From Aquabacterium sp. (GTDB lineage Bacteria; Pseudomonadota; Gammaproteobacteria; Burkholderiales; Burkholderiaceae_C), in contig NZ_JAIZVX010000026.1 of assembly GCF_021768455.1 (NCBI RefSeq), positions 1 through 33,233 of the forward strand: 33,233 nucleotides of DNA, read 5' to 3'. The translations under genes were made by a program, and so were the position numbers. This document shows positions 7,505 through 25,413 of this stretch, piece after piece (positions within the stretch are counted from its first letter, which is position 1; every line of letters begins with the position of its first letter). The notes below the pieces were generated by a model. The model was not told the origin of the DNA and made no database searches. It saw nothing but the letters and a program-made list of their open reading frames with translations.

Positions 7505-7580
7505 TGGAGCGGGATAAGAGACTCGAACTCTCGACCTATACCTTGGCAAGGTATCGCTCTACCAACTGAGCTAATCCCGC
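7505..7580 (-). tRNA. tRNA-Gly(GCC), copy 1
   Basis: The full cloverleaf is visible on the minus strand: acceptor GCGGGAT/ATCCCGC, D arm GCTC/GAGC, anticodon stem ATACC/GGTAT around the loop TTGCCAA (anticodon GCC), T arm GAGAG/CTCTT with TTCGAGT, and an encoded CCA. The length is 76 bases. It is base-for-base identical to the copy at 8072-8147. Confidence 0.97.
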
Positions 7581-7611
7581 ATGTCTTGCGCTGTAATCAG
7601 CGAAGGCTCTC

Positions 7612-7641
7612 AGTATACATCGGTTTTTCAACAAAATGCAA
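7612..7641 (-). promoter_or_regulatory. Sigma70-type promoter of tRNA-Gly copy 1
   Basis: On the minus strand TTGCAT (7636-7641) and TATACT (7612-7617) are separated by 18 bases, 31 bases before the tRNA 5' end. The CCGATG block before the -10 and an ATCAGCGAA block after it recur at the second glycine tRNA. Confidence 0.7.
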
Positions 7642-7722
7642 GCCTCCGCAATCCAGCACGGCTTTTTTGCCACGGCCAGGACGACCTCCCCAGGCCAGCC
7701 AAGCCTTACACTCCTGCCCCAT

Positions 7723-7814
7723 GCCCCGATGGTGAAATCGGTAGACACAGCGGACTTAAAATCCGCCGCTCGTTGAAAGACAGCGTGCCGGTTCGACCCC
7801 GGCTCGGGGCACCA
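7723..7814 (+). tRNA. tRNA-Leu(UAA)
   Basis: This is a long class II tRNA of 92 bases on the + strand. Acceptor GCCCCGA pairs with TCGGGGC. The anticodon loop is TTAAAAT (anticodon TAA), a variable arm CGTTGAAAGACAGCG follows, the T arm carries GTTCGAC, and CCA is encoded. A -10-like TACACT lies at 7707-7712, just before the gene, without a clear -35. It is inverted relative to the neighbouring Gly and Cys tRNA genes. Confidence 0.96.
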
Positions 7815-7851
7815 GTCATCCGTGCGCAGACACCGATCGCCGCCACAAAAC

Positions 7852-7883
7852 AAAAAGCCCCACCAGCATGGCTGGAGAGGCTT
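7852..7883 (-). terminator. Intrinsic terminator of tRNA-Cys
   Basis: On the minus strand an interrupted stem (AGCC, then CCAGC/GCTGG, then GGCT) is followed by TTTTTG, about 18 bases beyond the tRNA-Cys 3' end. The same hairpin read on the + strand is followed by GTTGTT and may slow transcription leaving tRNA-Leu(UAA). Confidence 0.7.
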
Positions 7884-7900
7884 GTTGTTCAGGCTGTACC

Positions 7901-7974
7901 TGGAGGCGCGACCCGGAGTCGAACCGGGCTAGACGGATTTGCAATCCGTTGCATAACCGATTTGCTATCGCGCC
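7901..7974 (-). tRNA. tRNA-Cys(GCA)
   Basis: The 74-base cloverleaf on the minus strand has acceptor GGCGCGA/TCGCGCC, anticodon stem-loop CGGATTGCAAATCCG (anticodon GCA), T arm CCCGG/CCGGG with TTCGACT, and an encoded CCA. It lies downstream of tRNA-Gly copy 2 on the same strand, with a terminator between them. Confidence 0.97.
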
Positions 7975-8033
7975 ATGTCTGTCAGTGTCCAACAAAAAGC
8001 CGCTTCACGCAGCCTCCAAGTCAGACACTTGGT

Positions 8034-8066
8034 AAAAAGGGAAGCCTTTTGGAAGCTTCCCTTTTT
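8034..8066 (-). terminator. Intrinsic terminator of tRNA-Gly copy 2
   Basis: On the minus strand a 9-bp perfect stem (AAGGGAAGC/GCTTCCCTT) with a nine-base loop runs into T-rich sequence, six bases beyond the tRNA-Gly 3' end. Confidence 0.85.
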
Positions 8067-8071
8067 GAATG

Positions 8072-8147
8072 TGGAGCGGGATAAGAGACTCGAACTCTCG
8101 ACCTATACCTTGGCAAGGTATCGCTCTACCAACTGAGCTAATCCCGC
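8072..8147 (-). tRNA. tRNA-Gly(GCC), copy 2
   Basis: This is an exact 76-base duplicate of the gene at 7505-7580, with anticodon GCC and encoded CCA. Its recognisable promoter lies 118 bases upstream instead of 31, and a small hairpin with a GAAA loop (8149-8171) sits directly before the mature 5' end. Confidence 0.97.
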
Positions 8148-14522: not shown

Positions 14523-14609
14523 TGGTGCGCGGGGGGGGACTCGAACCCCCACACCATTGCTGGCGTCAGGACCTAAACCTGGTGCGTCTACCAATTTCGC
14601 CACCCGCGC
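14523..14609 (-). tRNA. tRNA-Leu(UAG)
   Basis: This is an 87-base class II tRNA on the minus strand: acceptor GCGCGGG/CCCGCGC, D loop AATTGGTAGAC, anticodon stem-loop CCAGGTTTAGGTCCTGA (anticodon TAG), a variable arm, a T arm GGGGG/CCCCC with TTCGAGT, and an encoded CCA. It sits directly before tig. Confidence 0.96.
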
Positions 14610-25265: not shown

Positions 25266-25302
25266 AAACAAAACGGCCCGCAAGAAGCGCTTGGCGGGCC
25301 GT
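25266..25302 (-). terminator. Attenuator terminator of leuA
   Basis: On the minus strand a 9-bp GC-rich stem (ACGGCCCGC/GCGGGCCGT), with further inner AAG/CTT pairing, is followed by TTTTGTTTGG. It lies 38 bases after the leader peptide stop and 116 bases before the leuA ATG. A CGGGC in the last codons of the leader peptide can pair with GCCCG of the 5' arm, a candidate antiterminator when the ribosome stalls at the leucine codons. That pairing is only five bases and is inferred. Confidence 0.85.
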
Positions 25303-25340
25303 GATTGATGCAAGTGGTACGTGTGTACAGACGACAGCGA

Positions 25341-25397
25341 TCAACGCGCCCGGGGCACTCCTAGGGGTAGCAGCAGCGAGGTGTTGAAGGTCGTCAT
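25341..25397 (-). CDS. leuL: Leucine leader peptide (leuA attenuation)
   Basis: This 18-codon reading frame on the minus strand encodes MTTFNTSLLLPLGVPRAR. It carries four leucine codons in five positions (CTG CTG CTA CCC CTA), two of them the CTA codon that is rare in such high-GC DNA. It is followed by the GC-rich terminator at 25266-25302 and then leuA. This is the classic layout of translation-controlled attenuation: ribosome stalling at leucine codons under leucine shortage would prevent the terminator from forming. The extended -10 box ends eight bases before the ATG, so the transcript probably starts at or within about two bases of it, without a ribosome-binding site. Confidence 0.85.
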   Translation of the reverse strand: MTTFNTSLLLPLGVPRAR

Positions 25398-25404
25398 GGG
25401 TTTG

Positions 25405-25413
25405 AATATAGCA
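25405..25413 (-). promoter_or_regulatory. Extended -10 promoter of leuL-leuA
   Basis: On the minus strand TGCTATATT is an extended -10 element (TG, one base, TATATT). The GC-rich DNA before it has no good -35 at 16-19 bases, which fits an extended -10 promoter. A GCCCGG/CCGGGC hairpin at about 25420-25438 lies between pssA and this site and has no T run. Confidence 0.65.

Follow-up and report, generated by a model that had tools for sequence, protein, structure and literature searches.

A probable leaderless leucine attenuator before leuA in Aquabacterium and related Burkholderiales

Results

Layout of the leuA leader

The region between pssA and leuA in Aquabacterium sp. very probably encodes a ribosome-mediated transcription attenuator for leuA, with a leader peptide carried on a transcript that is predicted to be leaderless. 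The element itself is real and well conserved. As in leucine attenuators of the leuL type, a short ORF with Leu codons stands before a gene of leucine synthesis and an intrinsic terminator lies between this leader ORF and the structural gene. The sequence analysed, here called the window, is the whole stretch of 33,233 nucleotides (contig NZ_JAIZVX010000026.1 of assembly GCF_021768455.1), and all parts of the leader and its two neighbouring genes are on its minus strand.

The promoter consists of an extended -10 element, TGCTATATT (25413-25405), with the hexamer TATATT (25410-25405), and is followed by the seven-base spacer CAAACCC (25404-25398). The leader ORF, MTTFNTSLLLPLGVPRAR plus TGA, has 18 codons (25397-25341) and includes the control codons CTG CTG CTA CCC CTA (25376-25362). 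Transcription is predicted from the -10 spacing to start at the A of the ATG (25397) or at the C before it (25398). Antiterminator strand 2, CGGGCGCGTTGAT (25352-25340), overlaps the end of the ORF and the stop codon, and strand 3, ATCAATCACGGCCCG (25309-25295), can pair with either strand 2 or strand 4. The intrinsic terminator hairpin (25301-25274) has eight GC pairs between the arms CGGCCCGC (25301-25294) and GCGGGCCG (25281-25274), a loop of 12 nt and a U tract, TTTTGTTT (25273-25266), the last read from the sequence and the leader alignment. The controlled gene, leuA for 2-isopropylmalate synthase, follows at 25149-23608 (NCBIfam NF002087, E 6.9e-270; TIGR00973 above cut-off). The upstream neighbour is pssA, whose matched part (26188-25460) extends to the stop codon (TIGR00473, 113.4 bits compared to a cut-off of 107). 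The extended -10, the seven-base gap, the 18-codon peptide with its Leu run and the strong terminator before leuA, all named in a preliminary description of this DNA, are thus present. The same description called the two CTA codons rare, and this holds: CTA accounts for two of the four Leu codons in the leader ORF, whereas four ORFs of the window (three of them whole, one represented by its pssA part) use it once among 173 Leu codons.

A simple consensus scan for promoters and terminators reported neither element at the window leader, probably because the scan accepts only promoters with a -35 and loops of 3-8 nt, whereas the leaders have no clear -35 and the loop here is 12 nt. The pattern TGNTAYATT followed after seven bases by ATG occurs once in the 4.3-Mb assembly, at the window leader, and with six bases it also occurs once, at another amino-acid leader; the reversed control patterns gave no site in either case. 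The relaxed pattern TGNTANANT gave five sites (+6) and three sites (+7) in this genome, both leaders among them, with 0 and 1 control sites, respectively.

When the window was searched against Rfam, tRNAs alone reached the gathering score and no leader family did; the leader region itself had three weak matches far below that score. Similarly, no Rfam 15 family reached the gathering score in eight further related loci. A named Rfam leader family was therefore rejected as the identity of the element, and given that neither the window nor the eight loci reach an Rfam 15 gathering score, the leaders are probably unannotated. The window has five tRNA genes, at 7508-8147 and 14526-14609, four of which form a mixed-strand cluster.

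Leaderless geometry in related genomes

LeuA was used to search 150 genomes of the same family. Matches were obtained in 146, nine of which yielded only distant homologues. The 190 upstream regions used comprised 110 leuA places of the family and 80 named loci among the matches listed, some genomes occurring in both sets; among the named relatives are Aquabacterium, Hydrogenophaga, Acidovorax, Limnohabitans and other Burkholderiales. In 97 of the 190 upstreams a short Leu-rich ORF was accompanied by a perfect-stem terminator. With the promoter included in the search, 103 distinct leaders were obtained from 109 of the 190 upstreams, and all counts for this set are conditional on a -10 element within 4-11 nt of the ATG; the terminator finder reported no terminator in three of them.

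Because these counts presuppose a -10 near the ATG, the gap was counted again in 100 distinct leaders that were chosen by Leu ORF and terminator alone, the promoter being ignored to avoid circularity. The distance from TGnTAnnnT to ATG was 6 nt in 41 of these promoter-blind leaders, 7 nt in 44, 8 nt in four and 9 nt in five, i.e. 6-9 nt in 94 of the 100, which upholds the earlier claim of a promoter close to the leader ATG. One further leader had the element at 2 nt and five had none within 30 nt. In four of these five (L041, L097, L141 and L154) an alternative Leu ORF or start does follow such an element, and the fifth (L088) has TACAAT without TG six nucleotides before the ATG.

In the 103 leaders the -10 consensus was TGTGnTAyATT, and the sequence upstream of the TGTG motif was variable, with at most 0.23 bits per position over the 31 positions examined. 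No -35 signal was found in this set: matches to at least four of the six bases of TTGACA occurred in 12 of 103 leaders versus about eight expected from shuffles, and a -35 element was rejected as the matches at 16-18 nt were about equal to those in shuffles. Shine-Dalgarno-like tetramers preceded none of the 103 leader starts and 92 of the 103 leuA starts. The leader start codon was ATG in 99 cases and GTG in four. The base before it was C or T in 95/103, which we regard as weak evidence for the start site given that C or T also precedes 81/103 leuA starts. Judged from sequence, the layout is that of a leaderless mRNA, with a -10 element directly before the start codon, an AUG start and no Shine-Dalgarno sequence, and the 5' end of the transcript is predicted from the -10 spacing to lie at the leader start codon.

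The pattern with a gap of seven was also searched in 40 family genomes and gave 50 matches in 31 genomes, compared to three matches for the backward control. Among 30 of these 50 matches that were read, 14 were leucine leaders, seven aromatic leaders and nine others. Four of the nine others (L317, L327, L331 and L339) carry the extended -10 seven nucleotides ahead of the ATG in genes that we take to be CoaBC-like, and the same element stands 7 nt before the ATG at L326, presumably a MarR/OhrR-like gene; these are further leaderless candidates.

Leader codons, RNA strands and folding

CTA makes up 209 of the 466 Leu codons in the 103 distinct leaders. Strand 2, as GGGC or GGGT, was present in 92 of the 100 promoter-blind leaders, the other eight having neither motif in range, and 57 leaders had it in frame 0, 31 in frame 1 and four in frame 2. 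Peptide ends as unlike as GVPRAR and PHGRRQ are accordingly encoded by one RNA strand, CGGGC, and given that the reading frame differs between leaders, this strand is kept as RNA.

Pairing was examined in an alignment (A1) of 78 out of 82 non-redundant leaders, L037, L048, L076 and L130 being left out. In the terminator 98.1% of cells were paired, three pairs were changed on both sides and 46 cells covaried, compared to 10.5 in shuffled data. Covariation in the antiterminator was weak (21 cells versus 14.2 shuffled); partners slid by +1 gave as many cells and partners slid by +2 a higher covariation score (0.120 versus 0.095). Pairing was nevertheless observed in 82.0% of antiterminator cells, compared to at most 49.4% when the partners were slid. 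Covariation was rejected as proof of the antiterminator, and the change of frame and the folding were relied on instead.

Folds were calculated for the RNA not covered by a ribosome, as far as strand 4, and the probability that strand 3 is paired upstream was taken as readout. The set comprised 99 of the 100 leaders, one leader without GCCCG in the expected place being excluded. Such a comparison with and without a ribosome had been suggested in the preliminary description. The mean probability was 0.911 for a ribosome placed on the first codon of the Leu cluster (above 0.5 in 96/99 leaders), 0.921 for the second Leu codon and only 0.709 for the last (above 0.5 in 74/99). With the ribosome at the stop codon, a state that also leaves less RNA free for pairing, it was 0.140 (above 0.5 in 4/99), and with no ribosome 0.478 (above 0.5 in 46/99).

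The pairing is partly a matter of composition, since the freed region is GC-rich and shuffled sequences average 0.593 in the first-Leu stalled state, the shuffled mean of the individual leader being above 0.5 in 91/99. In a run with 50 shuffles the real leader exceeded the mean of its shuffles in 95 of 99 cases, and in 65/99 at most five of the 50 shuffles reached it. The predicted alternation of antiterminator and terminator is supported by these models: folding yields an alternative antiterminator, with weak covariation, whose formation would be prevented by a ribosome on the stop codon.

In the window the antiterminator is formed by CGGGCGCGTTGAT with ATCAATCACGGCCCG. A 1:2 pause hairpin was not seen when the window leader was folded, strand 3 being paired upstream at 0.99 without a ribosome; the full-length window leader folds into the terminator. 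The window leader also offers AGGAGUGC after the Leu codons (25355-25362), which is complementary to the terminator loop (25282-25290), and AGGAGT is repeated by eye across one subgroup of leaders, with a mismatched loop in some of these.

Distribution in the family and the order

A covariance model (R1) was built from the 78 leaders and matches with E 0.01 or better were counted. Raw matches were obtained in 135 of 150 family genomes, of which 51 had supplied training leaders and match by construction, the other matches being independent of these. The number was lowered to 132, as the sole matches in three genomes (G016, G104 and G121) were to an aromatic leader. By R1, at least 132 of the 150 genomes of the family therefore have the leucine leader, all with E 4.4e-6 or better, counted as model matches irrespective of the gene that follows. 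This figure is a lower bound, given that one (G021) of the fifteen family genomes without an R1 match carries a leucine leader found by pattern (L322). The preliminary description had made its interpretation depend on conservation of the Leu codons and the terminator, and both are conserved, the terminator and the gap between -10 and ATG over many genera; its designation of the element as a complete leucine attenuator fits the Leu ORF, the terminator, the fold-supported antiterminator and the spread of the model in the family.

The only other sampled genome of the same genus (G033, locus L004) had no R1 match and no leucine leader. Here 8 nt separate the pssA stop codon from leuA, as if the whole attenuator were deleted, and the aromatic leader is kept. 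In four family genomes (G070, G122, G020 and G068; loci L232, L233, L234 and L242) the leader precedes a long-form 2-isopropylmalate synthase, identified by NCBIfam for the G070 locus and by eye for the other three, and the idea that a leader no longer adjoining leuA is always lost was therefore rejected. In several other family genomes leuA lies, by eye, directly after the apparent end of a long-form 2-isopropylmalate synthase gene.

Across the order, 29 of 399 genomes matched R1, and 15 of these matches were strong (E 3.7e-10 or better). The strong matches include four genomes of one genus in another family, f10; loci of all four show the same layout with a Leu ORF, and in three of them the next ORF found is by eye a 2-isopropylmalate synthase. 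Other families contributed 40 leuA upstreams, of which one was too short and 39 could be used. A Leu ORF was found in 31/39, and 27/39 had TAnnnT 4-10 nt before the ATG versus 36/1950 shuffled sequences; a terminator accepted by the finder followed such a Leu ORF in 6/40 only.

Leu leaders before leuA were also noted in other families of the order (L250, L252-L254, L256, L257, L259, L262-L267, L269-L273, L279 and L282). They have a nucleotide-conserved end near CTGCTGCTGCGCCCCGCGCGCTAA (LLLRPAR*), followed in several by what is by eye a C-rich stretch. Most have no intrinsic terminator accepted by the finder, and a Rho-dependent or other type of attenuator is possible for them. At two loci of another family (L239:2987-3126, minus strand; L240:613-752, plus strand) a TGnTACATT promoter and a terminator lie about 140 nt apart and no leader ORF was seen; these elements are possibly small RNAs.

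An aromatic sister leader before DAHP synthase

Full-length weak matches to R1 were leaders before DAHP synthase whose peptides contain Phe, Tyr and, in most cases, a single Trp. In the genome of the window such a leader with a terminator lies before DAHP synthase on contig C256 (8987-9135, plus strand; L223:788-936), and similar loci are L224-L231 and L291-L310. Its peptide, MVNTRAYFYFFELPPQTGAGVVSA, has no Trp. A second model (R2), built from nine aromatic leaders, matched 146 of 150 family genomes. In each of the best 20 R2 loci, eight of which come from genomes that gave training leaders, DAHP synthase was downstream, and the gap between -10 and ATG was 6 nt in two, 7 nt in 11, 8 nt in six and 9 nt in one. 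On sequence grounds, the Phe/Tyr-rich leader before DAHP synthase is read as a sister leader of the same layout.

Discussion

In the attenuation that we propose, an extended -10 promoter lacking a -35 would direct RNA polymerase to begin with the A of the leader ATG or with the preceding base, and the ribosome would bind the 5' AUG without a Shine-Dalgarno sequence and read a cluster of Leu codons in which the rare CTA is frequent. If leucyl-tRNA is short the ribosome would stall on this cluster, and the folds support that CGGGC at the end of the ORF would then be free to pair with GCCCG, so that the terminator is blocked and leuA is transcribed. If leucine is ample the ribosome would reach the stop codon and cover CGGGC; GCCCG would then pair with the CGGGC of the terminator and transcription would end about 130 nt from its start, both steps again being supported by the folds. 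Translation of the leader ORF and the response to leucine are themselves presumed here. The preliminary description also held that the first ribosome consumes the 5' end. This part is not maintained, as a leaderless AUG is free again once the ribosome has moved on and can be reused; the first ribosome alone would matter for another reason, namely that RNA polymerase takes the attenuation decision once.

Other readings of the region have to be weighed. The transcript could have a normal 5' leader, with the real start in pssA or further up, an accidental -10-like element and no role for leaderless translation. The start position here is indeed a prediction from the -10 spacing, and pssA and leuA are on the same strand, possibly co-transcribed, and only 8 nt apart in the sampled genome of the same genus. 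We nevertheless consider this unlikely, given the constant distance of 6-9 nt between -10 and ATG in 94/100 leaders, the variable sequence above the TGTG motif and the occurrence of the same layout before DAHP synthase. Moreover, since none of 103 leaders is preceded by a Shine-Dalgarno-like motif, an upstream transcript would translate the leader ORF poorly.

That the promoter and terminator mainly form a gene for a trans-acting small RNA, attenuation being secondary, is less probable still. Such a role would suit a terminated product in the form of a leaderless RNA of about 130 nt, and rnTrpL of Sinorhizobium meliloti is, in the accessible text of the report, such a product with a function in trans (PMC7298713). 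Here, however, the peptide varies outside the Leu cluster and the RNA-constrained 3' end, and where a long-form 2-isopropylmalate synthase adjoins (L232, L233, L234 and L242) the leader stands before that gene. Finally, a terminator between pssA and leuA could simply close the pssA operon, with the leader ORF untranslated. This explanation has almost no probability in our view, given the CTA-rich Leu clusters, the promoter-like element between pssA and the terminator and the placement of CGGGC to alternate with the terminator.

The proposed leaderless attenuator resembles known systems in its parts. Enteric leuL of Escherichia coli and Salmonella likewise has a Leu-codon ORF including rare CTA and mutually exclusive antiterminator and terminator before leuA, and it differs in having an untranslated 5' leader and a Shine-Dalgarno sequence, where the leaders described here have a promoter-ATG gap of 6-9 nt and no Shine-Dalgarno sequence. 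No published description of either leader in Betaproteobacteria was found in a literature search from which most subscription papers were absent. Attenuators of Proteobacteria were surveyed in 2004 by Vitreschak and colleagues, and that survey may cover part of these leaders. The individual parts are known, and as far as this search goes the novelty would be a family-wide leaderless leucine attenuator in Betaproteobacteria, as predicted from sequence, together with its aromatic sister.

The arrangement had been called unusual in the preliminary description, which is only partly right, given that precedents are reported in the accessible texts for S. meliloti trpL (PMC7298713) and for leuL, trpL and ilvL of Streptomyces lividans (PMC8079986). 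The S. meliloti rnTrpL RNA begins with the trpL ATG, as is predicted here for the leucine leader; it differs in that it concerns tryptophan in Alphaproteobacteria, its 5' end is reported and both RNA and peptide act in trans, as far as described there (PMC7298713). In S. lividans, leader peptides for leuA, leuS, trpE, trpS and ilvBHC are reported leaderless, and LeuL1, LeuL2, TrpL1 and IlvL resemble the present case, with Leu-rich peptides before leuA and leuS. In this actinobacterium LeuL1 is reported without a typical Rho-independent terminator, whereas the window leader has a strong one and an extended -10 (PMC8079986, accessible text). A leader peptide before leuA is also described in the available text for Corynebacterium glutamicum (PMC3890552). 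LeuL of Campylobacter jejuni is likewise encoded by a small Leu-rich ORF that precedes leuABCD and contains rare Leu codons (PMC3847290), and its RNA ends shortly past the stop codon; its orthologues were called partly by a ribosome binding site, and leaderlessness is not mentioned in the accessible parts of these reports (PMC3847290, PMC11955535). Leaderless mRNAs are reported from the mapping of start sites in Burkholderia cenocepacia and Cupriavidus metallidurans, and neither leuA nor attenuation was found in the main texts of these two studies as accessed (PMC4603805, PMC7563307). Similarly, neither leuA nor leucine was found in the main text, as accessed, of a survey of premature terminators (PMC2965389).

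A wider interpretation is conceivable, although we hold it to be rather doubtful: leaderless attenuation might be the ancestral style for amino-acid leaders in the order, with at least two such switches in the family (leucine and aromatic), and a start at the 5' AUG might sense both the supply of aminoacyl-tRNA and the capacity for leaderless (70S-type) initiation. Failed initiation would then turn the gene on rather than off, because the antiterminator is predicted without a ribosome in about half of the leucine leaders.

The family thus offers a large and uniform set of attenuators with initiation at a 5' AUG apparently built in, the leucine leader being found in at least 132 and matches to the aromatic leader in 146 of 150 genomes. 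Such a set makes the timing of leaderless initiation relative to RNA polymerase testable.
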